64,000 bases of DNA. Origin: Draconibacterium orientale (GTDB lineage: Bacteria > Bacteroidota > Bacteroidia > Bacteroidales > Prolixibacteraceae). The stretch is from assembly GCF_000626635.1 (NCBI RefSeq), contig NZ_CP007451.1, forward strand, positions 4,942,501 through 5,006,500, in the 5' to 3' direction. A model generated the notes under the pieces. That model did no database searches. It saw only the letters and a list, made by a program, of their open reading frames with translations, and had not been told where the DNA came from. Of the stretch, positions 19,220 through 34,619 are shown one piece after another (the stretch's first letter is position 1; each line of letters starts with the position of its first letter). Made by a program: the position numbers and the translations under genes.

Positions 19220-20203
19220 GCACAAAAAGGCAAAAGGCAAAAGGCAAAAGTATAAAGACAAAAAAAAAGATCAGATGCTTTTTTACAACTCCGGCCCTAA
19301 ACTGTTTGCTGTTCCCTTCTTCTGCAATCAAAAATCATTAAACACGAAGAGGCAAAGACACAAAGTTCTGAAGTACAGCATCTACGCGCTAAGCGCATAG
19401 AATTGGCGCTGTTCATTTTTTCTATTACTGAATTTTTCAACTGTAAACTGTAAACTGTTTGCTTTTCCCTACTTCTCCGATCAAAAATTGCTAATCAGCG
19501 TTTGTCAATCTTTATTCTTTTATCAGCTGTCCGGACCTCTTGCTCCAAACTGCTTTTTGATCGTTGATCATTGCCCCATCGTGGAGCGCGGTAGAATTCT
19601 GGCTTTTATCCCCGGAGCTAAAGCACCGGACTAATAATACCAAATTGACCACAAAATACCGCATATAAATTTGTTCTTTTCCGTTTCTACTGCGTTGAAA
19701 AATTATAACGTAGCTCGGCTATGCTAAAATTTATCGCCTTGTACAAACGGAAAATAACCGGCATATCCAATACGGCATTTTATCATCAAATTGGTATTAT
19801 ATTTCGTCCTTCCTGGTTCTGCAATTTTAAATTGCTAATTACCCTTCGTCAATCTCCTCCAATCTCAGTGCTCAGCGCTCAATCTCCTTTCCCGTTTTCC
19901 CATTCACCAATTTACTGGTTCAATCTCCATCAATCTCCATCAATCTTTATTTCAATCTCTATTCAACTCAGCTCCCATTAATCCTTCATCCTTAATCACA
20001 AATCCTTTCATCCTCTTTCAAGCTACATCAATCTGCTTCAATCTCCATCAATCTCATAGTCTCAGCTCCCATTAATCCTTCATCCCTAATCACTAATCCT
20101 TTTCATCCTTTCAACCTCCACCATTCTCACCGTCTCAATGCCCCTCCTTTTGCCTTCACACTTTTTCCTTTTGCCTTGCAAAACCTTTTCCTATTTTTGC
20201 CTC
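19220..20203. repeat. repeat-rich intergenic region before PAP2 gene
   Basis: No gene. GGCAAAA tandem words at 19224-19255. A MITE-like element at 19635-19799. CAATCTCCAT-type word arrays at 19850-20060. A longer direct repeat starting CTCCCATTAATCCTTCATCC occurs at about 19970 and again at about 20065. The array is the reverse complement in kind of the words at 17.58-17.65 kb. Confidence 0.7.
19635..19799. mobile_element. MITE-like element, 165 bp
   Basis: Terminal inverted repeats TAATACCAAATTGA (19635-19648) and TCAAATTGGTATTA (19786-19799), 13 of 14 matching, enclose non-coding DNA with internal dyads. Related ends occur at 28117-28234 and 38624-38797. Confidence 0.6.
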
Positions 20204-21013
20204 GTGAAAAATCATTCAGCATTCATAACAAATTTACTGCTCGCAGGCCTGCTACTATTCTCCATACAAGGGATAGCGTCTGACGGGAAAACCCCGAAAC
20301 CGATCTCACGGCTAACTTTCCCGACAACTTCTGACTTTGCATTTCACAACGATTCCATCCATCATATCAATTTTCGGTATGCTGACAAAAAACGGGGATT
20401 CAAACCTTTTATCGCACCATCGCTCCTGGTTGCCGGTGGAACGATATTGCATTTTTCGGACTGGAAATACGATATTAATGAGTGGAGCAGAGAACATTTC
20501 AACTATACCGGCCACCTCGACGATTACCTGCGTTTTGCACCAATTGCCGCCGTTTATTCCTTAAACGCTTTGGGCATACAGGGGAAAAACAATATCGGTA
20601 ACCAAACCGCAATTCTGGGCAAAAGTATGGTATTGACTACCCTTATCACCAAAAGCCTAAAAAGTATTTTGGATGTAGAACGCCCCACAGGCCAAACACA
20701 ATCGATGCCCTCGGGACATACAGCCATTGTATTTGCAGCAGCCCAATGGATGCACCGCGAATACGGCGAAACAAACCCCTGGTACAGCATAGGTGCTTAT
20801 ACCTGTGCCGCCACCGTGGGAATCATGCGTATTTCAAAAGGCAAACACTGGGCTTCCGACGTACTGGTTGGCGCAGGAGTAGGAATGATCTCCACCGAAC
20901 TCATCTACTTCACTCATCAATTCAAATGGGATCGCGAACACCTGAATAACCTTGATATTTTTCCGTTTAAAACCGGCCACCAAAAAGGGCTTGCACTGGT
21001 CTATACCTTTTAA
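20204..21013 (+). CDS. PAP2-family membrane phosphatase
   Basis: Type 2 phosphatidic-acid phosphatase, possibly acting on undecaprenyl pyrophosphate or lipid phosphates on the periplasmic side. The three-part signature is complete: KSILDVERP, then PSGHT, then SKGKHWASD. I chose the GTG at 20204 (VKNHSAFITN), which gives a 269-residue protein with a good signal peptide ending near QGIASDG. A TATTTTTG box sits at 20192-20199, so the mRNA would be almost leaderless. A longer frame begins at 20138 but its first residues come from repeat DNA. The exact substrate is unknown. Confidence 0.85.
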   Translation: MKNHSAFITNLLLAGLLLFSIQGIASDGKTPKPISRLTFPTTSDFAFHNDSIHHINFRYADKKRGFKPFIAPSLLVAGGTILHFSDWKYDINEWSREHFNYTGHLDDYLRFAPIAAVYSLNALGIQGKNNIGNQTAILGKSMVLTTLITKSLKSILDVERPTGQTQSMPSGHTAIVFAAAQWMHREYGETNPWYSIGAYTCAATVGIMRISKGKHWASDVLVGAGVGMISTELIYFTHQFKWDREHLNNLDIFPFKTGHQKGLALVYTF

Positions 21014-21433
21014 CCAGCCACAAGTCTCAAGCTACAAGTCTCAAGCTACAAGTATTTATTGCTCAACCACTCCCCGTCTTTTACCTTTTTACTTTTGCCT
21101 TGGTACTGGATGCTGGATTCTGGATGCTGGATACTGGATACCGGATTCTCGATGCTGGATTCTCGATACTCCAATGCCTGTGCCTGAATTTTGCTGTGCC
21201 TGATTTTCAATTCGCTACGCTCAACTTTTTACTTTTACATTTTCACTTTGTCTTACTTTTACCTTTTCACTTTTTACTTTTGCCTTTTTACTTCTGCCTT
21301 ACTTTTGCCTTTTCACTTTGTCATACTTTCGTCTTTTTACTTTTACCTTTTTACTTTTACCAACGATCTTCTTCTTTTTTACGCAGTAATTTATATTTTT
21401 GTCTCCCACGAATTTGCATTACACAACAAACTA
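21014..21433. repeat. word-repeat region upstream of upxY gene
   Basis: No gene. CTGGATGCTGGATACTGGAT-type tandem words at 21103-21175 match those at 10.10-10.14 kb. From 21220 to 21360 there are repeated CTTTTTACTTTTGCCTT words, including perfect TACTTTTG boxes at 21090, 21275 and 21300. Confidence 0.7.
21394..21401 (+). promoter_or_regulatory. -7 box for antiterminator gene (TATTTTTG)
   Basis: Perfect TAnnTTTG 32 bp before the ATG at 21434; likely head of the exopolysaccharide locus. Confidence 0.5.
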
Positions 21434-21961
21434 ATGGCATCTTTACAAACTCAAAAACAATGGCATGTAATTTACACCCGGTCCAGGGCGGAAAAGAAGG
21501 TCGTACAAGAACTTAATTTAAACGACATTGAATGCTTCCTTCCGCTGCAAAAAAGACTCCGCCAGTGGAAAGACCGCAAAAAATGGGTAGAAACCCCGCT
21601 GATCCCGGGCTATTGTTTTGTAAATATCACCCGCAAAGAATACGACAAAGTTCTGCAACTTAACAACGTGGTAAGCTATGTCACTTTCGAACGAAAAGCC
21701 GCTATTGTTAGTCAGGCCGAGATAGAGGCCCTGGAAACCATTCTCCGCCAGTTTGATTTTGAGGTGAACGTTACCATGGAGAATTTCGAACCCGGCAAAC
21801 TGGTTGAAGTAATAGAAGGGCCAATGGTAGGACTAAAAGGTGAGCTGATTGAGTGCAGGGGAAAAAATAAATTTGCGTTGCGCATTGAACAGATCAACAC
21901 TTCCTTTTTGGTTGAAATTCCGGCCTCCTGCCTGAGTGCGGTACCGGAAAATGTGATCTGA
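21434..21961 (+). CDS. UpxY-type NusG-family transcription antiterminator
   Basis: NusG paralogue expected to travel with RNA polymerase and prevent early termination in long polysaccharide operons. 175 residues from the ATG at 21434 (MASLQTQKQWHVIYTRSRAEKK). The NGN domain carries WHVIYTRSRAEKKV and LIPGYCFVNI; the KOW domain carries EGPMVGLKGELIE. An upstream in-frame extension consists of translated repeat words and is rejected. Placement at the head of the export genes matches Bacteroides capsule loci, where UpxY acts on its own locus; action here is inferred. Confidence 0.9.
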   Translation: MASLQTQKQWHVIYTRSRAEKKVVQELNLNDIECFLPLQKRLRQWKDRKKWVETPLIPGYCFVNITRKEYDKVLQLNNVVSYVTFERKAAIVSQAEIEALETILRQFDFEVNVTMENFEPGKLVEVIEGPMVGLKGELIECRGKNKFALRIEQINTSFLVEIPASCLSAVPENVI

Positions 21962-22132
21962 CAACTATCAAATACCTCATTCACGCTGGCGGTTTCCAGC
22001 AAGAAAAAACAAGCGCAAAACCAAATAATTCACCAAATAAAAACCAAATACTCTTTAGTTAAACATAAATTAACAAATAGCTTTTTTATTGGGTATTTTC
22101 CTGACACAATAAAAAATACATAATTAAATAAA

Positions 22133-22202
22133 TACTTTTGCTATTCTTTTGTCTCAACATCCTACTCGCACAATAATATGTAACCGAGGAGGCGAAGCAG
22201 TA
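22133..22202 (+). promoter_or_regulatory. conserved promoter-leader module, copy 1
   Basis: TACTTTTG at 22133-22140, then CTACTC and ACAA at fixed offsets, and a 23-nt block (GTAACCGAGGAGG then CGAAGCAGTA) at 22180-22202. The same arrangement, with the same 40-nt offset, occurs at 28461-28530. It precedes the HAD/wza/wzc genes. Confidence 0.7.
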
Positions 22203-22373
22203 TCTTTACACCTAAAAAAAACATGAATTCCGGAACAAACGATCCCTCATTTTAGTTCAAGTGATCTTTTGCTTCCGAATAGCTGATCGATAACAAAGCC
22301 CGAATAAATCTTTTGCTCAGATCATCCTAAAGCAACTAAACCAATCCAAAAACGCACAAAAAACCAATAATTT

Positions 22374-22772
22374 ATGCGAACACCACTAACGATAGCTGTT
22401 GATTTCGATGGCACCATTGTAGAACACAGATATCCCAAAATCGGAAATGAACTTCCTTTCGCCATCGAAACGCTGCGCGCCCTACAAAAAAAAGGCCACA
22501 AACTAATTTTATGGACCTACCGTTCAGAAATAGAACTGGACGAAGCAGTTGAATTCTGCCGCGAAAAAGGCCTGGAATTTTACGCCGTAAATAAAAATTA
22601 TCCGGAAGAAAAGATGAACGATAAGATCAGTCGGAAAATACTTGCCGACCTCTATATCGACGACCGAAATTATGGCGGTATGCCCGAATGGACAGATATC
22701 TTTTATAGCCTGCATCCCGAAGAAAGAGTAGCCATTGAACAAACAAAGTCGAAAAGCTGGTGGAAAAGATAG
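22374..22772 (+). CDS. HAD-superfamily hydrolase (BT0820-like)
   Basis: Small cytosolic HAD phosphatase, 132 residues. The DxD nucleophile motif VDFDGT (D10, D12) is at the start. WTYRS is motif II and LYIDDRNYGG contains the acidic motif IV. Short HAD proteins of this type occur in Bacteroidota capsule loci, perhaps dephosphorylating a sugar phosphate; the substrate is not known. It lies 172 bp after the conserved leader block and 164 bp before the Wza-type gene. Confidence 0.85.
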   Translation: MRTPLTIAVDFDGTIVEHRYPKIGNELPFAIETLRALQKKGHKLILWTYRSEIELDEAVEFCREKGLEFYAVNKNYPEEKMNDKISRKILADLYIDDRNYGGMPEWTDIFYSLHPEERVAIEQTKSKSWWKR

Positions 22773-22936
22773 AAATCCTGCAAAGAGAAAGCAGGTAAGG
22801 TCGTTTCCTTTCACCTTTTATGACGCATCGTAAAAGCATGCACGCAAACAAATTGTTGTTAATCGCCCGGAACAGAAATGCCTGAGCATCCTCTTTCGGC
22901 AAAAAAATTTAACAAAGTAAACATTATACACTTACA

Positions 22937-23737
22937 ATGAATTCAAAACAAATCCATCGTCTGATGTCATTACTAATGGTAGCTGCTTCGCTTTCGCTTT
23001 TCTCCTGCCACAGCAGCAAAGAACTGATTTACATGAAAGATGTGCAGAACAACCAGGTAATCAAAGCATTGACCGATACCATTACTGAATACATCATAAA
23101 ACCCGGCGATATACTTTACGTAAGCATCAAATCGATGAATGCCGAAGTAAATGCACTGTTTAATCCGGAATCGAATATGGAAGCCCAAAATTACAGTTCG
23201 CACCAGAAGTACACTACTCCCCAGGGAGCTTACCTCTATGGTTTTGAGGTAGATGAAAGAGGAAACCTTCAACTTCCCATAATGGGCGACATCCCCGTAG
23301 CCGGGCATCCCAATTCACACATCGAAAAGATTGTACAAAAACATGCCAACAAATACCTTAAGGAAGCCATTGTTAAGGTTAAGCTACTGAATTACAAGGT
23401 CACCATTATGGGCGAGGTTAAGCGCCCCGGTGTATATTACAATTACAATAACAACTTCACTGTGCTTGAAGCACTTGGCATGGCCAACGGAAATACCGAC
23501 TACGCAAATCTGACCAATATAATGGTTATCCGTCCACAGCCCGATGGACAAAAAGCGATGATTCTTGATCTGGCCGCCTCGGATGCCTGGCTGCAAAAAG
23601 GCTTTTACCTCCACCCCAACGATTACATTTTTGTAGAACCCAATACACATAAGAACTTCCAGCTCAACGCCCAGGTTTTTTCCATGATCATCTCGTCGGC
23701 CAGCTTATTGTTAGCAGTATTCGGGCTCCTGAAGTAG
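22937..23737 (+). CDS. Wza/BexD-like polysaccharide export lipoprotein
   Basis: Outer-membrane polysaccharide export protein, 266 residues. The signal peptide ends in a lipobox (SLSLFSC, Cys24), so it is a lipoprotein. A Poly_export domain starts around IIKPGDILYVSI. An SLBB domain follows (VTIMGEVKRPGVYY). A C-terminal hydrophobic segment (SASLLLAVFGLL) probably forms the membrane helix. It sits directly upstream of the Wzc-type kinase, its usual partner. Confidence 0.93.
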   Translation: MNSKQIHRLMSLLMVAASLSLFSCHSSKELIYMKDVQNNQVIKALTDTITEYIIKPGDILYVSIKSMNAEVNALFNPESNMEAQNYSSHQKYTTPQGAYLYGFEVDERGNLQLPIMGDIPVAGHPNSHIEKIVQKHANKYLKEAIVKVKLLNYKVTIMGEVKRPGVYYNYNNNFTVLEALGMANGNTDYANLTNIMVIRPQPDGQKAMILDLAASDAWLQKGFYLHPNDYIFVEPNTHKNFQLNAQVFSMIISSASLLLAVFGLLK

Positions 23738-23860
23738 AGAAAACCAGGCAAAACAACGTGTAACCAATACGCTACGAAAAATTCACAACAAAAAGTAGCT
23801 TCCCGGCCAAAAACAATACAACAGAAACACGCACATAAAAACAAAGAGATTTTTCACAAA

Positions 23861-26080
23861 ATGACAGCGAACAATAACAACAACCAGCCATACAACACCA
23901 TTGAGCAAGATGATGAAATAGACCTCAAACGACTGCTTTTTCTTCTGTTGCGCAAATGGTATTGGTTGGTTATGGGGCTTTTTCTGGGGATAACCGGAGC
24001 CTATTTATTTGTTAAATACACCCCCGACAAATACCAGGTAAACACCAGTTTACTGGTTACGGATGAAAGCAAAGGCTTCGACCTGGAAAATTTATTTATG
24101 GACGGGATGATGGGTAGCAGCGGTATAGCCAGCCTGCAAAACGAATTAGAATTCCTGCGTTCCTATACCCTGAACCACCAGGCAGTTGACAATCTCAACT
24201 GGCAAACCTTTTGGCAAAAAAAGAACCTGATTATTTGGAACGGTATTTACCTCAACGAGCCTTTTATCCTCAATAAATCAGGCGAAGGCTTAAACCCGGC
24301 AGGAATACCAATATATATCACCCCTCTTTCAGAAACAGAATACGATATCAGTGTGGATGGAGAAATAAAGCTAGAAGGACAGAACGTAAAAATAGAATTC
24401 AGCGAAATCGCAAAATACGGCGAGCCTTTTCGCAACGAATACTTTAATTTTACACTTACTCCAAAAGAAAATTCCAGCGACCTGCCTGGCGAGTGGTACC
24501 GTTTTTCGTTTATAAATAAAAGCAAACTCACTACAGATTACCTCAAAAGAGTTACTACCGACTATGGCAAGGAAAGTGAAGTGATCAAACTATCGGTTGA
24601 AAGCACAGAACCTCTGCGTGACATTCACTACCTGAACGAATTGGTACGCGTGTACCTGAAGCTCAAACTCAACCTGCAAACACAAACCCAGAAACGCTCG
24701 CTCGAGTTTATCGATTCGCAGCTGTCGGGTATCTCCAGCGATCTGACTGCCGCAGAAAATACCTTTACCGAGTTCCGATCGAAAAACCAGATCATCGATC
24801 TCAGCAGCCAGGGAAGCCTTATTATGGAACAGCTAAAAGAGATTGAGCAGGAAAAGTCGCAGATGCAAATGCAGCTCGATTATTTTAAAAACCTTCAGCG
24901 CTACCTCGGTAACATCCAAAGTGCCGATCAACTGGTGGCACCTTCTGTGGTTGGCATTACTGATGCTACACTGAATGCACTCGTTCTTAAGCTCAGCGAA
25001 CTGTACAGCCGCCGCAAGGTATTGGCGTTTAGCGCTTACGAAAACAATCCGTCCCTCATTCTGCTTAACCAGGAGATTGAACAGGTAAACCAACAATTGC
25101 GCGAAATACTGGTTAACCTGATCGACAATACCCAGCTATCGGTAAACACACTCAACCTTCGCTACACCCGCATCAACAATCAGTTGAACAACATGCCCGA
25201 GCAGGAACAACAGCTGATTAATATACAGCGCCAATACGAGCTCACCAACGAAATATACACCTACCTGCTGCAACGCCGTGCCGAACTGGAAATTTCACTC
25301 GCTGCTGCCATTGTTGATATACAAGTAATCGATCCGGCACAATTTGAACGCCTCATTCCACTTAACAAAAGCCCAATGCTCATCTTGCTTATAGGTGCTT
25401 TTCTGGGGCTGTTACTTCCGGGAGTACTCATCCTGCTTGTCGATTTGTTAGACAATAGTATTCACCTGCAGGAAGATATCGAGAAGCTTACTCCATTACC
25501 CATATTGGGAAATGTCTTACACAGTACCGATAAATCGGAACTGGTAGTTATACATCACCCCCGGGCCCCTATAACCGAGTCGTACCGTACCATCCGCACC
25601 AATCTTCAATTTAAATTACAGGATAAACAAAAAGTTATCGGACTACATTCGGTTCAGCCTGGCGAAGGAAAATCCTTTAATGCCACCAACCTGGCCTGCA
25701 TTATGGCTATGAACGATAAAAAAACCGTAATTATCGGTGTAGATATGCGTAAACCCCGATTAAATAACATCTTTAACCTTGCAAATACAAAGGGATTAAG
25801 TAATTATCTGGCCGGCCAGTCCAGCAGCAAAGCAATCCTTCAACAAACCGAAATCGAAAACCTGTCGGTCATCGCTTCCGGCCCCATTCCTCCAAATCCT
25901 GCCGAGTTAATCGAACGTCCGGCTTTTTCACAACTGCTGGAAGAATTAAAGGCACAATTCGACTATATCATTATTGACAATGCTCCTGTGTCGCGCGTAA
26001 CCGACGGACTAATCACCAGCCGGCACAGCGACCTGAATCTCTTCATATTACGTTATGGAGTAAGTAAAAAAGCCAGTTAA
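23861..26080 (+). CDS. Wzc-type polysaccharide copolymerase / tyrosine autokinase
   Basis: Inner-membrane chain-length regulator and bacterial tyrosine kinase that contacts the Wza channel. An N-terminal Wzz domain with its first membrane helix (~30-50) is followed by a long coiled-coil periplasmic part and a second helix (~505-530). The kinase has Walker A QPGEGKS (~600), Walker A' VIIGVDMRKPR and a YIIIDNAP Walker B. It stops at 26080 after LRYGVSKKAS. The natural end, including the Tyr-rich tail, is found just downstream in other frames (26074-26218), so the open frame is truncated by about 45 residues. Confidence 0.9.
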   Translation: MTANNNNNQPYNTIEQDDEIDLKRLLFLLLRKWYWLVMGLFLGITGAYLFVKYTPDKYQVNTSLLVTDESKGFDLENLFMDGMMGSSGIASLQNELEFLRSYTLNHQAVDNLNWQTFWQKKNLIIWNGIYLNEPFILNKSGEGLNPAGIPIYITPLSETEYDISVDGEIKLEGQNVKIEFSEIAKYGEPFRNEYFNFTLTPKENSSDLPGEWYRFSFINKSKLTTDYLKRVTTDYGKESEVIKLSVESTEPLRDIHYLNELVRVYLKLKLNLQTQTQKRSLEFIDSQLSGISSDLTAAENTFTEFRSKNQIIDLSSQGSLIMEQLKEIEQEKSQMQMQLDYFKNLQRYLGNIQSADQLVAPSVVGITDATLNALVLKLSELYSRRKVLAFSAYENNPSLILLNQEIEQVNQQLREILVNLIDNTQLSVNTLNLRYTRINNQLNNMPEQEQQLINIQRQYELTNEIYTYLLQRRAELEISLAAAIVDIQVIDPAQFERLIPLNKSPMLILLIGAFLGLLLPGVLILLVDLLDNSIHLQEDIEKLTPLPILGNVLHSTDKSELVVIHHPRAPITESYRTIRTNLQFKLQDKQKVIGLHSVQPGEGKSFNATNLACIMAMNDKKTVIIGVDMRKPRLNNIFNLANTKGLSNYLAGQSSSKAILQQTEIENLSVIASGPIPPNPAELIERPAFSQLLEELKAQFDYIIIDNAPVSRVTDGLITSRHSDLNLFILRYGVSKKAS

Positions 26081-26218
26081 AATTTATTAACGACATCGCC
26101 CGTCAAGGCACAATGGCACAACCCTGCCTTAATCATAAACGACATCAAATTACATCGTTTTGGTTACGGATATGGCCATTCCTACCAATATGCCTATGGA
26201 AAAGGATACGCGGTTTAA
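26074..26218 (+). pseudogene. detached C-terminal tyrosine tail of the Wzc kinase
   Basis: After the premature stop, frame +2 reads QLKFINDIARQGTMAQPC (26074-26130). The original frame then resumes at 26132 with IINDIKLHRFGYGYGHSY and a further Tyr-rich stretch to a stop at 26218. One missing A in the A6 run at 26066-26071 and one extra base near 26131 restore a normal BY-kinase end, including the autophosphorylation tyrosines. Confidence 0.8.
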
Positions 26219-26238
26219 CAACTTACTGCGCCCCGAAG

Positions 26239-27410
26239 CTCATCCTCCTTTTTTAAAAGGAGGTGTCCCGATCGAAGCATCGGGACGGAGGATTAAGCAG
26301 TATGGAACAAAAAGATTCCTCAGTCGTACCTCCTTCGGAATGACAGGGTTATCGAAATTAACCGGCGGCGTAGAAACAAGTTAATAATTTCAATGTCCAT
26401 CAAACGCCGCCCATGAACATAAACAAGTTGCAAGTGATAGGAATAGAGCAAATACTTATAACAACAACTAAAAATGCTCATAACCTCATCCTCCTTTTGC
26501 TAAAGGAGGTGTCCCGATCGAAGCATCGGGACGGAGGATTAAGCAGTATGGAACAAAAAGATTCCTCAGTCGTACCTCCTTCGGAATGACAGGGTTATCG
26601 AAATTAACCGGCGGCGTAGAAACAAGTTAATAATTTCAATGTCCATCAAACGCCGCCCATGAACATAAACAAGTTGCAAGTGATAGGAATAGAGCAAATA
26701 CTTATAACAACAACTAAAAATGCTCATAACCTCATCCTCCTTTTGCTAAAGGAGGTGTCCCGATCGAAGCATCGGGACGGAGGATTAAGCAGTATGGAAC
26801 AAAAAGATTCCTCAGTCGTACCTCCTTCGGAATGACAGGGTTATCGAAATTAACCGGCGGCGTAGAAACAAGTTAATAATTTCAATGTCCATCAAACGCC
26901 GCCCATGAACATAAACAAGTTGCAAGTGATAGGAATAGAGCAAATACTTATAACAACAACTAAAAATGCTCATAACCTCATCCTCCTTTTGCTAAAGGAG
27001 GTGTCCCGATCGAAGCATCGGGACGGAGGATTAAGCAGTATAGAACAAAAAGATTCCTCAGTCGTACCTCCTTCGGAATGACAGGCTTATAGGAATTACC
27101 CGGCGGCGTAGAAATACGTTATTAGTTTTAACATCCATAAAACGCCGCCCATGAACATAAACAAGTTGCAAGTGATAGGAATAGAGCAAATACAAACAAC
27201 AACTACTAAGCATGCTTAAAGCCTCATCCTCCTTTTGCTAAAGAGCCTGTCCCGATCGTAGCATCGGGACGGAGGATTAGGTAGTATCGAACAAAAAAGA
27301 TTCCTCAGTCGTACCTCCTTCGGAATGACAGGCTTATCGGAATTATCCGGCGGCGTAGAAACAAGTTAATAATGTCATTATCCATCAAACGCCGCCCATA
27401 AACATTAAAA
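26239..27410. repeat. five tandem copies of a 246-bp repeat
   Basis: Units begin at 26239, 26485, 26731, 26977 and 27223, exactly 246 bp apart. Units 1-4 are almost identical; unit 5 is diverged and incomplete. Each unit has hairpins CCTCCTTT/AAAGGAGG and GTCCCGAT/ATCGGGAC, a GGAGGATT block, a CCTCCTTCGGAATGACAGG block, and a GGCGGCGT/ACGCCGCC stem around a ~40-nt loop. No gene. A related copy lies at 32.02-32.2 kb. Confidence 0.95.
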
Positions 27411-27722
27411 ATACAGGCATTACGAGGAGTCCGCTATTCGGACGACGAAGTAATCTAATCAATTCGCGTAGTTGAAGATAAATAATCAGCGCAAATCAGA
27501 ACGATCTGTGTTATCAGCGTTCCAACAAAAGATTGCTTCGGACGACGAGTTAATCCGATAAATTTGTGAACGCGAAGGCGTTTAAGTTTTGCACCGCGGC
27601 TTTAGCCCCGTGGTAAAAAACAGATAAGTAACAGGCTTTAGCCATTAATCTTTGCATTTAAAGGCTGAAGCCATTCAAACTTCTAATCAGACCTTCACCG
27701 CACTAAAGTACGGTGCAAAACA
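27223..27722. repeat. ~490-bp duplicated block, copy A
   Basis: From the last 246-bp unit through CGAGGAGTCCGCTATTCGG, the GCGCAAATCAGAACGATCTG words and CACTAAAGTACGGTGCAAAA. This is about 95% identical to 32025-32516 in the same orientation. Confidence 0.9.
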
Positions 27723-27760
27723 AATTCTAACAAACAAGAAAAAATGATCAATATTCAATA

Positions 27761-28115
27761 ACAAATACCCAATGCAGAACAAGCTAAAACGCATCAATCT
27801 GCAGACGATTTGGACATTGATTATTCAGTATTGAATATTCCTATACTCTAACTAGTTACAATGAACATCAGCAGCAAATACTTTCCAATAAATCATTACA
27901 GGGGCAAAGCCCCGGAAAGTTACAGCATCGTCCGCAAGGGCGATGATTTGTACAATAACAAATACCCAATGCAGAACAAGCCAAAACGCATCAATCTGCA
28001 GACGATTTGAACATTGATTATTCAGTATTGGATATTTCCTACACTCTAAACAGTTACAAGATGTATCAGCAGCAAATTTCCAGTAAATCATTGTAGGGGC
28101 AAAGCCCCGGCAAGT
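27761..28115. repeat. tandem duplication, ~197-bp period
   Basis: ACAAATACCCAATGCAGAAC occurs at 27761 and again at 27958. The following ~155 bp also match (CATCAATCTGCAGACGATTT and GGGGCAAAGCCCCGG). No gene is in this part. Confidence 0.8.
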
Positions 28116-28116
28116 T

Positions 28117-28234
28117 ATACCAATTGTATTTCAAAGTGAGCCTTTGAAATTACAATGGTTAATGCCGATAGAAAATTAAAGAGGCTTTGGGAGTGAGCGA
28201 ACCAAAGCTTCAGTTTAATTTCAAATCGGTATTA
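28117..28234. mobile_element. MITE-like element, related to 38.6 kb copy
   Basis: Begins TATACCAATTGTA and ends AAATCGGTATTA, with the internal word ACAATGGTTAATGCCGATA shared with 38624-38797. The remaining stretch to 28596 has no gene apart from the promoter-leader module. Confidence 0.5.
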
Positions 28235-28460
28235 TGGCATCGTCCCTGCCTAAGGCAGGAAGACGTAAGGGCGATGATTCTTGCGAAAAATTGCAGCTCA
28301 GTAACAATACAGCTTTTGTGCGAAAACCAAACCACTAAACGCACACACTGTCAAATAATTAACCAAACAAAATCATAATGCTCATTTTCCGGCCATGAAT
28401 CAACAAATAACATTTTTGTATTTTTTTCAGGAAACGGCTTTATTAATTAAACAAATTGAG

Positions 28461-28530
28461 TAGTTTTGCTACTCAACTAATATTGATTTTCTACTCATAC
28501 AACACCTGTAACTGAGGAGGCGAAGCAGTA
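28461..28530 (+). promoter_or_regulatory. conserved promoter-leader module, copy 2
   Basis: TAGTTTTG at 28461-28468, CTACTC and ACAA at the same offsets as copy 1, and the block GTAACTGAGGAGG then CGAAGCAGTA at 28508-28530. It precedes the winged-helix regulator and SLBB genes. Confidence 0.7.
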
Positions 28531-28596
28531 CCCAAATCAGCGTATCCACCACTACTCCCAACTATTTCCAACTTCACATAACTCACTACTAGCCAA

Positions 28597-29130
28597 ATGA
28601 TAGAGTCATTAATCACAAACAAAACCCGGCTAAAACTTTTACTCAAGTTTTTTCTGAATAAGGAAACCACCAGCTACCTCAGAAACCTTGAGAATGAGTT
28701 TGGTGAATCTTCGAATGCCATACGTCTGGAACTGAACAGGTTGGAGAAAGCTGATTTACTGGTTTCGAATTTCAACGGGAACCGAAAATATTTCCGTGCC
28801 AATGATAACCACCCGCTTTACGGCGAAATCAACAGCATTTTGCAAAAAACCGTGGGCCTGGATACGGTTATCGAAAAGATCCTGAAAAATGTAGGCGACC
28901 TTAACGAGGCTTATCTTATCGGCGATCTGGCCATAGGCAAAGAATCGGGTATTATCGACCTGCTGCTGGTGGGCGACGACATCGACACTCGCTTTGTGGT
29001 GGCACTGGTAACGAAAGCAGAAAAACTGGTCAATAAAAAATACGCTACCTCATTCTTTCTGAAAACGAAAAGGCCGATTACCTGCAAAAACAAAACGCCT
29101 TACATATTTGGTCGAGAGAATAAAGTTTAG
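28597..29130 (+). CDS. winged-helix regulator with nucleotidyltransferase-like domain
   Basis: Probable DNA-binding regulator of the polysaccharide locus, 177 residues. N-terminal ArsR-like winged helix (TRLKLLLKFFLNKETTSYLRN to LVSNFNGNRKYF). C-terminal part resembles a degenerate nucleotidyltransferase (YLIGDLAIGKESGIIDLLLVG). Proteins of this form sit near upxY genes in Bacteroidota. The last ~25 residues (KTKRPITCKNKTPYIFG) look unnatural. A one-base shift near 29047 gives LILSENEKADYLQKQNALHI and ends at 29123, which fits the family better, so the 3' end is probably frameshifted. Confidence 0.75.
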   Translation: MIESLITNKTRLKLLLKFFLNKETTSYLRNLENEFGESSNAIRLELNRLEKADLLVSNFNGNRKYFRANDNHPLYGEINSILQKTVGLDTVIEKILKNVGDLNEAYLIGDLAIGKESGIIDLLLVGDDIDTRFVVALVTKAEKLVNKKYATSFFLKTKRPITCKNKTPYIFGRENKV

Positions 29131-29191
29131 CTTTGTTCTTTTGTCGAAAACCGAAAAAATAATGAACCTTTTAGATTAACGTAACACAAAT

Positions 29192-31540
29192 ATGAAGCAC
29201 TTACTAAAATCAATGTTAACAGTATTCTTTTGCGCTGCACTACTACTGTCCACTCAGGCACAGACGCAAACGCAGACGCAGGATGTAAAGAATGTTGATG
29301 TTAAATCATTGCCGCAATCCGAGATCACCAAAGCCAAAAGAGCCATGAAGGATGCCGGGTTATCGGAAGAACAAGCGATACAACTGGCCCGTCAGCGGGG
29401 AGCTACCGAGCAACAGATCATGGAAATGCGTCAACGATTAAGCGAACAGGACACCACGCAGCAAGACATGTTTGAGCTTTATGAAGAGCCCGAAATATTA
29501 CCCGAAGAACAAAAAGACGCTTACCTTTCGCAACGGAAAGTTGAATTAAAGAAGGATCTGGAAGTTTTTGGAGCCTACTTATTTAACAACGAAAACCTGA
29601 CTTTCGAACCACAGGTAAACATTCAAACACCAAAAAACTACGAAATAGGCATTGGCGATCAGTTGCTTATTCAGGTTTGGGGGAACTCACAAAACAACTA
29701 TCAGCTAAGGGTAAATAACAACGGACAGATTGTTATTCCCGACCTGGGACCGGTTTATGTGGCTGGCATGTCGTTTGACGAGGCTGAAAAGAAAATTGTA
29801 AAAAACCTTACTGCCATTTATGCCGATATGGGAGGCGACAATCCCGGCACCTTTGCCCAGTTAGACATGGGGCAGCTGCGCTCTATCCGTGTAAACCTGT
29901 TGGGCGAGGTGGTAGCACCGGGCACCTATACCCTACCCGTAACAGCAACCGTTTTTAACGGCTTGTACCTATCGGGTGGCCCTAACGAAATTGGTTCATT
30001 CCGTAACATCAAGGTTATTCGCAACAACAAAATTGAACAGGTAATCGATATATACAATTTACTGGTTAATGCTGATCCATCTGACAATATTACCTTAAAA
30101 GACGGCGATATCGTACTGGTGCCGCCTGCCGAAAAACAGGTGGTGGTAAACGGCGAATTCAAACGCAACGGTATTTTCGAAATTAAAGAAGGCGAAATGC
30201 TAAACGACCTGGTACGCTTTTCCGGAGGTTTTAACGCCGGAGCCTACCTGGGCAACACGCAAATTGTACGGCAAACACAAAAGGGACAACAGATTATCGA
30301 TGTTCCTTACGACCTGCTAAATACCACACCGTTGGTAAAAGGCGATACTATTCAGAATAACCTCACTACCGACAGGTTTGAAAACAGAGTAAGCATAGAA
30401 GGTGCCGTTTATCATCCGGGAGAGTACGAGTGGACCGAGGGGCTTACCCTCGACCTGTTAATTGAAAAATCAGGCAAGCTGCTGCCCGAAGCATTTAAAG
30501 GACGGGGATTGATTACCCGCTACAACAGCGACCGTACGACTTCTGCCATTGCCTTTGATGTGGAAGATATCAGCAGCGGTAAACAAAACATCCTGCTGCA
30601 AGCCGACGATGAAGTGCTGATAAAAACCCATTTCGATTTAAAAGAACAACCTTATATTACCGTTAACGGCGAAGTGCTGGAACCCGGCCCCTTCAACTGG
30701 TCGGAGAACATGACACTTGGCGATGCTATTTTCCTGGCCGGAGGCCTTACCGAGGGCGCCGACAGTACGTTTATCGAAATTGCCCGCCGCCTGAGTTACG
30801 ACGATGCCGCCGTACTTTCCGACACCATCGGACACGTTATTATTGCCAATATCTCGCGCGGATTACAACTGGGTAAAAACGATGCTGAAATGAAATTACG
30901 GCCCTGGGATCAGGTATCGGTGCGTACGGCTCCCAACTTCCGTCAAAACGAAACGGTAATGATTTCGGGCGAAGTAACCTATGCCGGCGCCTATGCCATT
31001 ACCAATAAACAAATGCGTATCTCCGACCTGCTGCAAATGGCCGGGGGAACTACCCCGAAAGCCTATCTTCAGGGAGCTACACTCGAACGTTTTTCCGATG
31101 AACTGGGCACCGAACGTGTGGCCATCAATCTGCAAAATATTCTTAACAACCCACGGAGCGATAAAGACCTGTTATTAAAAAATAGCGACCGCCTCAATAT
31201 TCCGGAATTTATGCAAACCGTAAAAATTACCGGAAGCGTACAAAACCCGTTCTCCATTACCTTCGAACCAAAACGTAATGCCAAATACTATATCAACCGT
31301 ACCGGAGGATTCCAGGCTGAAGCCAATAAGCGAAAAACCTATGTACAGTACCCCAACGGTGAAACAGCGGTTACCAAAGGACTTATTTTCAGACACTACC
31401 CCGATGTAACACCGGGTAGTATTGTGGTCGTTCCTGAAAAACCGGAAAAAGAACGTCAGCAGGGACTTTGGCTGGCCATAGCATCTACGATGTCATCAAT
31501 GGCCGTAGCAATCGCCGCAATTATGAACGCATCGAAATAA
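29192..31540 (+). CDS. large SLBB-domain polysaccharide export protein
   Basis: Outer-membrane/periplasmic export channel protein of the Wza superfamily, 782 residues, much longer than Wza. Signal peptide MKHLLKSMLTVFFCAALLLS, then a Gln/Thr-rich stretch and a helical N-terminal region (residues ~35-130). A Poly_export domain (IGIGDQLLIQVWGN) follows, and then about five to six SLBB repeats recognisable by G-E/E-V-x-x-PG motifs (LLGEVVAPGTYTL, IEGAVYHPGEYEW, VNGEVLEPGPFNW). The C-terminal hydrophobic helix is LWLAIASTMSSMAVAIAAI. It is a second exporter beside the 22.9-kb lipoprotein, so there may be two export systems. Confidence 0.92.
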   Translation: MKHLLKSMLTVFFCAALLLSTQAQTQTQTQDVKNVDVKSLPQSEITKAKRAMKDAGLSEEQAIQLARQRGATEQQIMEMRQRLSEQDTTQQDMFELYEEPEILPEEQKDAYLSQRKVELKKDLEVFGAYLFNNENLTFEPQVNIQTPKNYEIGIGDQLLIQVWGNSQNNYQLRVNNNGQIVIPDLGPVYVAGMSFDEAEKKIVKNLTAIYADMGGDNPGTFAQLDMGQLRSIRVNLLGEVVAPGTYTLPVTATVFNGLYLSGGPNEIGSFRNIKVIRNNKIEQVIDIYNLLVNADPSDNITLKDGDIVLVPPAEKQVVVNGEFKRNGIFEIKEGEMLNDLVRFSGGFNAGAYLGNTQIVRQTQKGQQIIDVPYDLLNTTPLVKGDTIQNNLTTDRFENRVSIEGAVYHPGEYEWTEGLTLDLLIEKSGKLLPEAFKGRGLITRYNSDRTTSAIAFDVEDISSGKQNILLQADDEVLIKTHFDLKEQPYITVNGEVLEPGPFNWSENMTLGDAIFLAGGLTEGADSTFIEIARRLSYDDAAVLSDTIGHVIIANISRGLQLGKNDAEMKLRPWDQVSVRTAPNFRQNETVMISGEVTYAGAYAITNKQMRISDLLQMAGGTTPKAYLQGATLERFSDELGTERVAINLQNILNNPRSDKDLLLKNSDRLNIPEFMQTVKITGSVQNPFSITFEPKRNAKYYINRTGGFQAEANKRKTYVQYPNGETAVTKGLIFRHYPDVTPGSIVVVPEKPEKERQQGLWLAIASTMSSMAVAIAAIMNASK

Positions 31541-32679
31541 TTTAGCTGCAAGTAACGAGTATAAAGCAGAAGCAATCTCCTCCTCAAGGAGCGGTGGGCT
31601 TTTGCGACGAAGGAGTAAAAGATCTTGGTGGTGGTTTCTTACCCTATCTCTTATCTTTCCCTCCAGGCAGGGAAAGACGATCAGCCGGCAGAAGTAACAG
31701 AGACGGTATAAACTATCCATTTAAGAGCATTGAAAAACATCATAAATTAGTGCGTACAAAACAATCAACGACTAAAAAACTTGTTGATGACTTCATCCTC
31801 CTTTTTTAAAAGGAGGTGGCTGCCAGTTGGCGGACGGAGGATTGCATAAGGTAAGTGACGAAAATTCGCTTTACCCTATCTCTTATCTTTCCCTCAGGCT
31901 GGGAAAGACGATCAGCCGGCAGAAGTAACAGCGACAATATAAAATATCTTGTTAAGAGCATTGAATTAATTTTATAACAATAGAGCAAATACTTATAACA
32001 ACAACTAAAAATGTTCATGACTTCATCCTCCTTTTGCTAAAGGAGGTGCCTGACGAAGGAAGGCGGAGGATTAGGTAGTATGGAACAAAAAGATTCCTCA
32101 GTCATACCTCCTTCGGAATGACAGGCTTATCGGAGTTACCCGGCGGCGTAGAAACAAGTTAATAATGTCATTATCCATCAAACGCCGCCCATGAACATTA
32201 AAAATACAGTCATCACGAGGAGTCCGCTATTCGGACGACGAAGTAATCTAATCAATTCGCGTAGTTGAAGATAAATAATCAGCGCAAATCAGAACGATCT
32301 GTGTTATCAGCGTTCCAATAAAAGATTGCTTCGGACGACGAGGTAATCCGATTAATTTGTGAACGCGAAGGCGTTTTTAGGTTTTGCACCGCGGCTTTAG
32401 CCCGGTGGTAAAAAACAGATAAGTAACAGGCTTTAGCCATTAATCTTTGCATTTAAAGGCTGAAGCCGTTCAAACTTCTAATCAGACCGTCACCGCACTA
32501 AAGTACGGTGCAAAATAAATACAGATCAGTTTCAATCAGCATAATCTGCGTTATCAGCGTTCCAACAAAAGATTGACTATTACAAGAGAGTGGAACAGCA
32601 GAGATTTTCAGGTAGGTTCTGTTCAATAGAGGGTTTTTGAGGATTTAATAAGCAACATTAAACTTCAAACATTTTTCTC
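31541..32679. repeat. repeat region with copy B of the ~490-bp block
   Basis: No gene. Two CATCCTCC...GGAGGATT hairpin elements at about 31793 and 32025. AGGCTGGGAAAGACGATCAG words occur twice (31.67 and 31.90 kb). From 32025 to 32516 the sequence is a near copy of 27223-27722. The flanked segment contains the regulator and SLBB genes. Confidence 0.85.
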
Positions 32680-32687
32680 TATCTTTG
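32680..32687 (+). promoter_or_regulatory. -7 box for toxin-antitoxin pair (TATCTTTG)
   Basis: Perfect TAnnTTTG 18 bp before the antitoxin ATG. Confidence 0.5.
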
Positions 32688-32705
32688 ATTAAAAGCATTA
32701 AAAAC

Positions 32706-32879
32706 ATGACAACAATTTCAAAGGGAACCAATAAAAAGGAAATCAAATTATTGCTTTTGCAGATTGACAAGAAAAAATCATCCAGAAAAAATATTGATTT
32801 AAATAAATATTGCGGAGCATTAAAACTGCAAGAAAACCCTGTTGACATCCAAAAAAAATGGAGAGATGAGTGGGAATAG
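32706..32879 (+). CDS. probable antitoxin of VapBC-like pair
   Basis: 57-residue basic protein (MTTISKGTNKKEIKLLLLQI) with no clear fold signature. Position and overlap define it: its stop at 32879 overlaps the PIN-domain gene by 14 bp. Similar small proteins precede PIN toxins in Bacteroidota. An antitoxin role is inferred from context only. Confidence 0.65.
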   Translation: MTTISKGTNKKEIKLLLLQIDKKKSSRKNIDLNKYCGALKLQENPVDIQKKWRDEWE

Positions 32880-33243
32880 CCTCGTTATTGATACCAATAT
32901 CATCCTTTACTTGTTAAATGGCGACGAAACCCTCATCCCAGTTTTGGAAGAGAAACAATTATACATCTCATTCATAACTCAAATGGAATTGCTCAGTTTT
33001 CATAAAATTAATGAGCACGATAAAAAAATAATTAAGTCATTTATTAAAGATTGTATTGTTATTGACATTCCTTACGACATCAAAAAACTAGCAATAGAAT
33101 TAAGAAAAAAATGCAATGTAAAATTACCTGATGCAATAATTGCTGCCACCTCCCTTTTCTTGAATGCACCAATTGTTACAGCCGATAGAGGTTTTAAGAA
33201 AATGGATCAGGACATCAACCTGGTTTTTTACGAAAAAGAATAA
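32866..33243 (+). CDS. PIN-domain ribonuclease toxin (VapC-like)
   Basis: Single-domain PIN nuclease of 125 residues, probably an RNase that inhibits translation when free of its antitoxin. The acidic catalytic residues are in place: D9 (LVIDTNIIL), E41 (TQMELL), D89 (KLPDAIIAA) and D107 (TADRGF). The ATG at 32866 is favoured because it overlaps the antitoxin end. An upstream start at 32842 lies within that gene. The pair lies in repeat-rich DNA between export genes and ugd, consistent with an accessory insertion. Confidence 0.88.
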   Translation: MSGNSLVIDTNIILYLLNGDETLIPVLEEKQLYISFITQMELLSFHKINEHDKKIIKSFIKDCIVIDIPYDIKKLAIELRKKCNVKLPDAIIAATSLFLNAPIVTADRGFKKMDQDINLVFYEKE

Positions 33244-33567
33244 CATTATTATTCAACTGTCATCCCGAACAAAGTGAGCCTGCCTGCAGTAGGCAGGGGA
33301 TCTGTAACAATAAAACCACTAAAAATACAATCAGCGTAATCTGCGTGAAACAAAAACGACAAGGGAATCTCTTATAATTGGTGGAATTCGTGGATAAAAC
33401 AATCAGCCCCATCGCTGGTGCGGATTTGTAATCCGTACCTCAGCCAACAGGCTGAAAACAATTATTCACAATCTGCGTTATCCGCGTTCCAACAAAAAAC
33501 CTTATCAGCATTCGAAAATACAATCAGGCGTAAATCACTATATTTGAAGCACAAAAGCAATAATCAA
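33244..33567. repeat. intergenic region with REP-like palindrome
   Basis: Contains TGTCATCCCGAACAAAGTGAG...GGATCTGTAAC, a dispersed word also at 36067. At about 33413-33456 lies a two-hairpin element: GGTGCGGATTTGTAATCCG...ACC and CAGCC/GGCTG. A TATATTTG box is at 33539-33546. No gene begins before 33568; the in-frame extension upstream is repeat DNA. Confidence 0.65.
33539..33546 (+). promoter_or_regulatory. -7 box for HEPN/MNT pair (TATATTTG)
   Basis: Perfect TAnnTTTG 21 bp before the ATG at 33568. Confidence 0.45.
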
Positions 33568-33987
33568 ATGCAGGAACAAGATATAAGGTGGAAACAACGA
33601 TTTGCCAATTACAAAAAAGCGCTGGATACGCTTTCTCAAGGTATAGAACAACACTTCGAAAAAGAACTCTCTGATCTGGAAAAACAAGGCGTTATTCAGG
33701 GATTTGAATTCACACACGAATTGAGCTGGAAGGTAATGCAGGATTTCCTGAAGGATCAGGGGGAAACAAACCTGTACGGATCAAAAGATGCTACACGCCT
33801 GGCTTTTAACCGTGGCTTAATTACCAATGGAGAAGGCTGGATGAATATGATTACAGACCGGAACCTTAGCTCGCACACCTATCAGGAAGAAATAGCTGAA
33901 CAAATTTTTAACCGGATTGTAAACGACTATTTTGAATTATTACGCCAATTTGAAAAAAAGATGGAAGAGCTATGCCATACGGACTAA
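33568..33987 (+). CDS. nucleotidyltransferase substrate-binding (HI0074/HEPN-like) protein
   Basis: 139-residue all-helical protein of the HI0074 type, which belongs to the HEPN superfamily and pairs with a minimal nucleotidyltransferase. Typical blocks are GFEFTHELSWKVMQDFL, GSKDATRLAFNRGLI and MITDRNLSSHTY. The RNLSSH run fits the R-x4-H-like HEPN motif. The start MQEQDIRWKQRF is favoured over a longer frame made of repeat DNA. It overlaps the next gene by 16 bp, so the two are translationally coupled, as in HEPN/MNT modules. Confidence 0.88.
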   Translation: MQEQDIRWKQRFANYKKALDTLSQGIEQHFEKELSDLEKQGVIQGFEFTHELSWKVMQDFLKDQGETNLYGSKDATRLAFNRGLITNGEGWMNMITDRNLSSHTYQEEIAEQIFNRIVNDYFELLRQFEKKMEELCHTD

Positions 33988-34280
33988 GCGAAAATATCCT
34001 CAGGCAATTGACAGCAGTTTTCGATAAATACATTCAGATCAATGAAGTTATTCTTTACGGATCAAGGGCAAAGGGAAATTATAACGAAGGATCGGACATT
34101 GACCTGACTATAGTTGGCGATCAGCTCGATTTTTCCATCCTTCAACAAGTAAATACCGACATCGACCAACTCAACCTTCCCTGGTTATTCGATATTTCTG
34201 ACTATAAAACCATAAATAATAAAAAACTCATCGATCATATCAATCGTGTCGGTATTACGATATACAAAGAAGAACAATAA
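33972..34280 (+). CDS. minimal nucleotidyltransferase (MNT, HI0073-like)
   Basis: 102-residue nucleotidyltransferase with the GS-x-DxD core: YGSRAKG at ~29-35 and SDIDL with D42 and D44. With the overlapping HEPN-like gene it forms a two-gene module. In characterised HEPN/MNT systems the transferase neutralises the HEPN toxin by adding AMP; for the HI0073/HI0074 subtype this is less certain. Confidence 0.88.
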   Translation: MPYGLSENILRQLTAVFDKYIQINEVILYGSRAKGNYNEGSDIDLTIVGDQLDFSILQQVNTDIDQLNLPWLFDISDYKTINNKKLIDHINRVGITIYKEEQ

Positions 34281-34619
34281 AACGTTCGGGAAGATTACAA
34301 GGGCATGAGACTGCCGCGCCTCCTTCCTCGGCTCGCGGAATCCTGCACCATAAAATGTTAAGAGTACGGGAAATCCTATTCCAAAATATTTTTTTGAAAT
34401 ACGACTCTGCGATTCAGTGACTCTCGCCTATTGGGAAACGAAGTGAACCAAAAGTCGAAAGAGGAACTAATCCCGAATCAAACTTCGGGAGGCACGAGCG
34501 ACGAAGCAGCCTCATCACTTTTACACTAAAAATACTTTACTGCACGAGTCTGCGAGCCGCAGGCGCGGCAGCCTCACTCACACTACTAAAAACATACAAA
34601 AAACAAACGAACTAAATAC
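34281..34619. other. intergenic region upstream of ugd
   Basis: 339 bp without a gene. Holds repeat-like words (GAGCGACGAAGCAGCCTCA at 34.50 kb and a GCAGGCGCGGCAGCCTCA variant at 34.56 kb). No clear promoter was seen. Confidence 0.5.

Follow-up and report, generated by a model that had tools for sequence, protein, structure and literature searches.

An ops-like element repeated in two leaders of a Draconibacterium polysaccharide locus is a likely recruitment site for an UpxY-type antiterminator

The ops sequence, which is read by the specialised NusG paralog RfaH in the leaders of polysaccharide operons, is GGCGGTAGCGTG in Escherichia coli and contains GCGGTAGC, a four-base-loop version of a DNA mini-hairpin. 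In Bacteroides, UpxY is said to act at capsule leaders (a finding ascribed to Chatzidaki-Livanis et al. 2009), and Saba et al. 2024 reportedly found that its recruitment draws on the paused polymerase, on DNA (the non-template strand and the upstream duplex) and on hairpins of the nascent RNA. The ops non-template hairpin has the pair C3:G8 and the loop G4-A7 in an excerpt of PMC5995543, which also names residues H20, R23 and Q24 of RfaH as ops contacts, and an excerpt of PMC2864571 presents JUMPstart as a conserved stem-loop of gamma-proteobacteria with an Rfam entry. Excerpts of two further papers mention UpxY recruitment in Bacteroides (PMC12691694) and state that it was unknown how NusG paralogs are recruited when their genes lie in the operons under their control (Wang et al. 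2020, PMC7593976). Here we describe a conserved block of 23 nucleotides (nt) that occurs in two leaders, site A and site B, of a polysaccharide locus in Draconibacterium orientale. The locus lies in a stretch of 64,000 nt (NZ_CP007451.1, positions 4,942,501 to 5,006,500, forward strand), called the window below and used for all coordinates. The block is probably (roughly 0.85) an ops/JUMPstart-like pause-and-recruitment signal for the UpxY protein encoded just upstream, with one upxY serving two operons.

The two sites (22133-22202 and 28461-28530) align without gaps from a TAnnTTTG box through the 23-nt block. Their aligned starts are TACTTTTGCTA and TAGTTTTGCTA, with CTACTC and ACAA at equal offsets, and the block starts 47 nt past the start of the box and differs at one base between the sites. 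The boxes TACTTTTG and TAGTTTTG both match TAnnTTTG, which we take to be the Bacteroidota -7 consensus. At up to three mismatches the block is found in the window at these two sites only (100 shuffles gave none). At up to two mismatches the whole 5.13-Mb genome holds two sites only, both of them leaders in the same locus, and the backwards control gave none. The block recurs at corresponding places in the genomes of relatives. The repeat is real and well above chance. Realignment confirmed the shared layout that an earlier note had read from the letters, and its gene assignments also hold, with site A ahead of the HAD, wza and wzc genes, site B ahead of the regulator and SLBB genes, and an UpxY-type gene upstream. 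Each element stands between a promoter and the first gene of an operon. The UpxY-family gene beside the polysaccharide locus ends ~219 nt before the block of site A and is the presumed reader of both elements. Its product scores 156.5 bits as UpxY and 63.9 as RfaH (cut-off 144.5) and thus does not qualify as RfaH, the rest of the genome not having been searched for that protein.

In the genus, a pattern search allowing up to two mismatches found 18 sites in 14 of 25 genomes, that of D. orientale included, and none in 16 genomes of other orders. Four of the sites lie ahead of the HAD gene and 14 ahead of the regulator, whose start is 79-113 nt past the block start at these 14. To avoid circularity, the search was repeated with the regulator protein as query. 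A match to the protein was found in 28 of 37 genus genomes, and 15 of the 16 newly fetched regulator loci carry the element, whereas at the sixteenth just 127 nt of upstream sequence is available; in two of the 15 the element sits 1.8 and 5 kb upstream of the regulator. Together with three sites from UpxY loci, the 18 pattern sites and the 15 regulator sites make a genus set of 36 sites, 34 of them distinct.

Beyond the genus, a relaxed pattern (up to two mismatches, N at positions 10, 11 and 20) matched 79 of 393 genomes of the order. The reversed pattern reached 19, so part of the 79 are chance matches. A tighter pattern matched 48 of 395 genomes in a sample of the phylum, against one for its reversal. 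A wider scan with the exact pattern, made on a collection of 84,980 species with one genome each, in the whole of which ~7 chance matches are expected (an estimate for uniform base composition), returned at least 116 stretches, of which 80 loci were examined. Among these 80 listed loci, 17 are titled as other phyla and two bear no phylum (L190 and L193); one Ignavibacteriaceae locus was counted with Bacteroidota. The order set also comprises 80 loci, one listed match for each of 77 genomes and three more. The wider set overlaps the genus set (L198, L214, L215, L221, L240, L259) and repeats order loci (L206, L228, L230, L231, L237, L254, L261, possibly others). Since a pattern was used to gather the order and wider sites, some of the constancy of their positions follows from the search itself.

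Some of the elements sit directly behind an UpxY gene. Within flanks of up to 7 kb, an UpxY gene was found at 23 of the 80 order loci, in 22 cases on the same strand and in 20 of these upstream. Fourteen of the UpxY genes end 49-217 nt before the site, which is the layout seen in the window. Among the wider loci listed, which share members with the genus and order sets, 28 of 80 have an UpxY gene, all 28 on the same strand and 21 upstream. An UpxY-like gene is near seven of the 17 listed loci of other phyla, and the one that was checked scored 140.6 bits against NF033644. Comparison of whole genomes points the same way: UpxY is over the cut-off in 229 of the 393 order genomes, namely in 70 of the 79 with a site and in 159 of the 314 without (Fisher odds ratio 7.6, p = 1.3e-10). 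Within the genus, 58 UpxY genes exceed the cut-off and, scored against the window UpxY, form three groups (a grouping by score, not by tree). Among the genus loci fetched, the element was found with group 1 only; 13 group-2 and 10 group-3 loci (23 loci) have none.

The genes that follow the element are often those of polysaccharide operons. The scan of first genes covered 30 order loci, the first of the 49 with an open frame of at least 150 amino acids (aa) within 1 kb among the 67 loci with a GTRACTGA-like arm. At 19 of the 30, the first downstream gene belongs to a polysaccharide-synthesis or export family (UDP-sugar dehydrogenases, epimerases, glycosyltransferase, flippase, Wzz, wza/SLBB, ABC-2 exporters, acyl- and cytidylyltransferase). 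A gene is present in the stretch at 14 of the 17 listed loci of other phyla. The first or second genes there belong to nucleotidyltransferase, NeuB, ABC-2 exporter, epimerase, wza, Wzz, O-antigen ligase and UDP-glucose dehydrogenase families, and also include a sigma-54 activator, an ATP-sulfurylase/APS kinase and an asparagine synthase.

The logo of 139 sites gives the consensus GTRACTGA[CGA]NN-GGCGRAGCTGTR, which is partly built in by the search patterns. The 139 sites are those of 152 distinct contexts that passed a GTRACTGA-like arm filter, set post hoc, which dropped 13. The second half of the block aligns without gaps with the 12-nt E. coli ops. The window 12-mer GGCGAAGCAGTA has the same length and start as GGCGGTAGCGTG and a different loop. 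Both 12-mers begin with GG and end with GTR, so the shorter loop is offset by one more spacer base. The consensus elongation pause is G-10, Y-1, G+1; in the 139 sites G12 and G13 reach 95 and 100% and T22 100%, and position 23 is A in 45% and G in 55%. The centre of the 12-mer is GC-GNA-GC, with G13, C14, G15, R16, A17, G18 and C19 in 99-100% of the 139 sites. Among the 67 order sites whose arm is GTRACTGA-like, collected with up to two mismatches allowed, G13, C14, G15, A17, C19 and T22 are invariant, position 18 varies once and the arm positions 2, 3, 5, 7 and 9 vary; position 20, which was free in the search pattern, is T in 64. A search aimed at C or T for the loop base returned only A or G among the matches listed. 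DNA loops of the GNA and GNNA type closed by G-C pairs are described in an excerpt of PMC4686876 as extraordinarily stable mini-hairpins, with a melting temperature of 78 C for GCGAAGC. In the window UpxY, E, L and N stand opposite the RfaH contacts H20, R23 and Q24 in an alignment that is distant; such differences would fit a different reading of a different loop.

In a hairpin predicted for the leader RNA, the first half of the block is the 3' arm, and a fitting 5' arm lies upstream. In the genus the 3' arm is near-constant, with TGTAA invariant in the 34 distinct sites, and the 5' arms are out of register. Several genus loci have changed 5' arms that are still able to pair (AGTTACAG/CTGTAACT, GTTGCA/TGTAAC and CGGCAT/ATGTAACCG). 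Arm and block of the 34 distinct genus sites fold with a mean of -6.96 kcal/mol, compared with -4.38 for shuffled upstream pieces (best of 300 sets -5.41). The corresponding means for the 67 order sites are -9.35 and -5.82 (best of 200 sets -6.48), and those for the 13 other order sites, which are probably chance matches, are -7.81 and -6.88 (best -8.36). Base 9, C or G, tracks GTYA and CTYA 5' arms (counts 22, 4, 11 and 20, p = 3.5e-4); no significant relation to arm type was seen for the words TTAC and TCAC (p = 0.25 and 0.12). RNAalifold found the hairpin in the first 18 genus sites. In a swap test of the 139 order and wider sites, which ignores the relatedness and base composition of related sites, the mean minimum free energy was -8.71 with their own upstream pieces and -7.45 with permuted ones (standard deviation 0.16, best of 300 -7.92), indicating that, on average, each block pairs best with its own upstream piece. 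Set-wise folding thus predicts a nascent RNA hairpin upstream of the pause, whereas the column-wise tests given below were negative.

These results suggest a mechanism in which each site would be a promoter whose leader carries a signal that recruits UpxY, the product of the gene just upstream. RNA polymerase would start a few bases past TAnnTTTG, and the ~30 nt then transcribed would form a small RNA hairpin with the 3' arm GTRACTGA. The polymerase may pause in GGCGRAGCTGTR, which resembles the consensus pause in layout (GG at -11/-10, T at -1 and a purine at +1), and in the open bubble the non-template strand could fold at the polymerase surface into the GCGRAGC mini-hairpin. UpxY would read the paused complex by way of the mini-hairpin, the upstream DNA and/or the RNA hairpin, and would then load, replace NusG and carry the polymerase through the long polysaccharide operon. 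The single upxY would in this way serve both the HAD-wza-wzc and the regulator-SLBB operon. The earlier note had offered an ops-like recruitment site as one possibility. This reading is favoured because UpxY is co-located on the same strand and co-occurs across genomes, the hairpin arms fit, and the 12-mer keeps the register of ops and of the consensus pause; conserved layout, arm complementarity, gene context and co-occurrence are properties of the genomes themselves, and we infer from them the start, the pause, the hairpin in the bubble and the contact with UpxY.

That the swap test disregards relatedness is one of several points that weigh against a recruitment signal of this kind. Taken singly, the hairpin reaches p <= 0.05 in only 11 of the 34 genus sites and 26 of the 67 order sites, and in neither window copy. 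RNAalifold on all 34 distinct genus sites gave no common pair, and column-wise pair (covariation) counts were not above those of shuffles. The DNA parameters of ViennaRNA do not fold GGCGAAGC (0 kcal/mol) but fold ops, so the single-strand hairpin rests on published measurements. Thirteen of the 80 order loci look like chance matches, a number similar to that implied by the 19 control genomes. In the fetched stretches 57 of the 80 order loci have no UpxY gene and hence would act in trans or be chance matches, and in nine of the 79 matching order genomes no UpxY reaches the cut-off by best E-values. Within the genus, 13 of the 16 group-1 loci fetched without a regulator gene lack the element; eight of these are pieces of less than 5 kb, and nine of the 13 genomes hold the element at another fetched locus. 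No element was found at the fetched loci of G010, G014, G022 and G048, the last of which was examined at that one locus only. Among the 30 first genes scanned, 11 are no clear polysaccharide genes; two of them are the regulator, two encode phage-integrase-type recombinases, and others belong to unrelated or unnamed families. No terminator-like site on the + strand was found between either block and its gene in 21900-29300, a region with seven such sites in all compared with 8.7 in shuffles. The 17 loci titled as other phyla are all contigs of metagenome-assembled genomes (MAGs), assigned to phyla by record title alone, which weakens a cross-phylum reading. However, 14 of these 17 have the loop GGA, compared with 4 of the 63 others among the wider loci listed, unlike what is expected for misplaced Bacteroidota contigs.

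The same hairpin could be the signal itself. UpxY or a partner would then recognise the RNA in the manner proposed for LoaP, and GGCGRAGC would merely be a pause. The 3' arm is indeed conserved as sequence beyond the needs of pairing, as the invariant TGTAA of the genus sites shows, the hairpin is supported set-wise, and an excerpt of PMC12691694 treats the leader hairpin of LoaP. However, across the 67 order sites it is the arm that varies and the centre of the 12-mer that stays fixed (a weak comparison, shaped by the search pattern and the arm filter), and the loop base of the listed matches is restricted to A or G. Recognition of the RNA hairpin by itself is considered unlikely.

Another suggestion of the earlier note was that the block is a shared operator, a double-stranded site for a DNA-binding regulator common to both promoters. 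A candidate operator does adjoin the block at site B, where a palindrome covers the -7 box and tracks the gene of a winged-helix-turn-helix (wHTH) regulator. At up to two mismatches, the palindrome is present at 25 of 27 regulator-adjacent sites of the genus and at 3 of the 9 others. The corresponding numbers are 9 of 9 (five of them genus loci) and 4 of 71 for the wider loci listed, and 3 of 4 and 6 of 76 for the order set. The exact palindrome occurs at seven places in the genome and its reversed control at five, so it is not specific on its own. The AlphaFold2 model of the regulator (predicted local distance difference test, pLDDT, 74.6) combines an ArsR-like winged helix with a nucleotidyltransferase-like part; Foldseek returned ArsR-type repressors and nucleotidyltransferases, and the C-terminal part matches 2rff by sequence. 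The palindrome is thus probably the operator of this regulator. Because it goes with the regulator gene and the regulator models as ArsR-like, site B seems to be two-layered, with a repressor acting at the promoter and UpxY loaded in the leader. The 23-nt block, by contrast, is not palindromic, has a fixed strand relative to nearby UpxY genes and contributes a fitting hairpin arm. It is also separable from the palindrome, as 67 of the 80 wider loci listed and 70 of the 80 order loci have neither palindrome nor regulator beside it. The block as a palindromic operator was rejected and a common operator of any kind is very improbable; what survives of the suggestion is the separate palindrome of site B. 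The fixed distance to the promoter, which the earlier note had proposed to check in relatives, likewise holds in part. The 140 nt ahead of the site contain a TAnnTTTG box in 32 of 36 cases in the genus (background 10%), in 34 of 80 in the order set (8%) and in 22 of 78 among the wider sites listed (8%). In the genus most of the boxes are 41-55 nt away, and elsewhere the spacing is more broadly spread. The near-fixed distance is therefore a feature of the genus rather than a rule.

A Shine-Dalgarno sequence (AGGAGG) of a short leader peptide is scarcely credible. The window copies do both contain GAGGAGG, followed in some relatives by GTG, but positions 9-11 vary and 45% of the 139 sites have GTA as the last codon, so neither the Shine-Dalgarno sequence nor the start codon is conserved, and the candidate was rejected on the logo. 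A dispersed repeat word that came to lie ahead of genes twice is an explanation of negligible probability, since the block, for all its resemblance to the CGAGGAG...GACGAAG repeats about which the earlier note had cautioned, has just the two genomic copies, both in leaders whose corresponding places are occupied in relatives. A known Rfam RNA was also rejected, the only matches being far below gathering scores: there was no JUMPstart (RF01707) match at site A (E <= 10) or in 20000-36000 (E <= 1), and none at the gathering score in 12 loci.

The features of the locus are collected in Table 1.

Table 1. Coordinates of the leader elements and neighbouring genes in the window
Feature	Position	Strand	Evidence
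upxY, UpxY-family antiterminator (specialised NusG paralog)	21434..21961	+	NF033644 156.5 bits (cut-off 100), NusG domain
-7 promoter box TAnnTTTG, site A	22133..22140	+	sequence
Predicted leader-RNA hairpin, site A: CTCG 22165-22168/CGAG 22185-22188, ACA/TGT	22161..22192	+	fold, alone p 0.086
Conserved 23-nt block, site A, ahead of HAD-wza-wzc genes	22180..22202	+	alignment, window and genome searches
ops-like 12-mer GGCGAAGCAGTA, site A, GCGAAGC mini-hairpin sequence at 22192-22198	22191..22202	+	logos, mini-hairpin literature
BT0820-type HAD phosphatase, first gene past site A	22374..22772	+	NF046079 188.9 bits (cut-off 165)
wza-type export protein	22937..23737	+	Poly_export and SLBB
wzc-type chain-length/tyrosine kinase	23861..26080	+	profile matches, comparison with relatives
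Palindrome TGAGTA-N7-TACTCA over -7 box, site B	28457..28475	+	tracks regulator gene
-7 promoter box TAnnTTTG, site B	28461..28468	+	sequence
Predicted leader-RNA hairpin, site B: CTCA 28494-28497/TGAG 28513-28516, ACA/TGT	28490..28520	+	fold, alone p 0.156
Conserved 23-nt block, site B	28508..28530	+	alignment, window and genome searches
ops-like 12-mer GGCGAAGCAGTA, site B	28519..28530	+	logos
Regulator, winged-helix (ArsR-like) and nucleotidyltransferase-like	28597..29130	+	AlphaFold2, Foldseek, weak ArsR hidden Markov model match below cut-off
Multi-SLBB polysaccharide export protein	29192..31540	+	profile matches

The open frame of wzc ends early (739 aa, compared with 784-785 aa in three relatives), and the last part of the regulator is out of frame compared with relatives; the altered C-terminal ends could reflect decay or an assembly error. 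Between the two genes lies a tandem array (26239-27405) in which a 246-nt unit is repeated 4.7 times with 95% matches. Further downstream, still inside the polysaccharide locus, a PIN-domain gene (32842-33243) and a HepT-like nucleotidyltransferase-binding gene (33418-33987) are possibly parts of a toxin-antitoxin system. The same genome has a second UpxY gene (G000:C1:4382519-4382986, L055), whose fetched stretch is without the element and in which UpxY is followed by a sugar-nucleotidyltransferase-like gene, assigned from the sequence by eye. The third UpxY group of the genus (L067-L076), of which as many as four copies were fetched from a single genome (G052), has a conserved stretch of its own, GTGCTAAG..AC.TGCCTTTGGCATG, in the 450 nt ahead of upxY, with a possible TGCC/GGCA stem; this stretch is a candidate for a separate recruitment element. 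At two order loci (L150 and L151) the first gene past the element encodes a phage-integrase-type recombinase, perhaps a promoter invertase as at Bacteroides capsule loci.

The kind of system appears to be already known, given the published UpxY recruitment and the JUMPstart stem-loop, and what appears new is a consensus shared beyond Bacteroides. To our knowledge, the only solution since Wang et al. 2020 to the recruitment of NusG paralogs encoded with their targets is the one reported for Bacteroides capsules (Saba 2024). Searches for the 12-mer text and for the topic, which did not cover Saba 2024, returned no description of the shared consensus, its GNA-loop mini-hairpin or its spread. Being short and searchable, the consensus allows recruitment to be tested in cultured genera and predicts the target operons of UpxY from sequence; named genomes with the element among the matches listed are those of Draconibacterium, Maribellus, Echinicola, Algoriphagus, Pedobacter and Chitinophaga. 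In the order scan, two genomes of one genus have many copies (G170 with 14 matches and G408 with seven), which would mean large UpxY regulons. Natural variants of the RNA hairpin and the DNA mini-hairpin could reveal which part is read, and the element suggests a natural role in transcription for the very stable GNA/GNNA DNA mini-hairpins of oligonucleotide chemistry.

More tentatively, at somewhat less than an even chance, a single recruitment code may extend across many phyla. It would consist of a leader hairpin ending in GTRACTGA and a 12-nt pause box centred on a stable DNA mini-hairpin, of which enterobacterial ops (GNNA) and the element described here (GNA) would be loop-size versions in the same 12-nt register. 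By MAG titles, the listed loci reach Nitrospirota, deltaproteobacteria, Omnitrophota, Gemmatimonadota, Acidobacteriota and an anammox group. In one genome (G148, L305-L307) the element occurs three times with the four-base loop GGGA and a spacer shorter by one base (GGCGGGAGCGTA and two variants). A hairpin is predicted at all three, and one lies just ahead of a GDP-fucose synthase-like gene, read by eye. These copies are apparent intermediates between ops and the element. The four-base-loop pattern was found in 3 of 295 genomes and its reversed control in 4 of 295.

The site-B palindrome, as distinct from the block, recalls ArsR-type wHTH autoregulators in the regulator fold found by Foldseek and in its position over the -7 box, and differs from them in the extra nucleotidyltransferase-like C-terminal part of the regulator. 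We know of no GCGRAGC element in the LoaP system. LoaP of Bacillus is likewise a NusG paralog that acts on a hairpin of the 5' leader (excerpt of PMC12691694), but the hairpin and the phyla are different. The Bacteroides capsule leaders share the UpxY-family factor and the polysaccharide leader. There, as far as excerpts of the literature describe it, each UpxY acts on its own operon, often as the first gene and mostly behind invertible promoters, whereas here upxY lies separately upstream, the block is common to two leaders and one consensus is found in many families. Compared with RfaH ops/JUMPstart, the element has a three-nt GRA loop instead of the four-nt GGTA and one more spacer base, a hairpin of other sequence without an Rfam match, and UpxY in place of RfaH. 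However, both have a polysaccharide-operon leader in which an RNA stem-loop is followed by a 12-mer of the same length for pausing and recruitment (predicted here), with the layout GGCG...GC..GTG, both hold GC-loop-GC in the non-template strand, and the reader of both, presumed for the element here, is a specialised NusG paralog.

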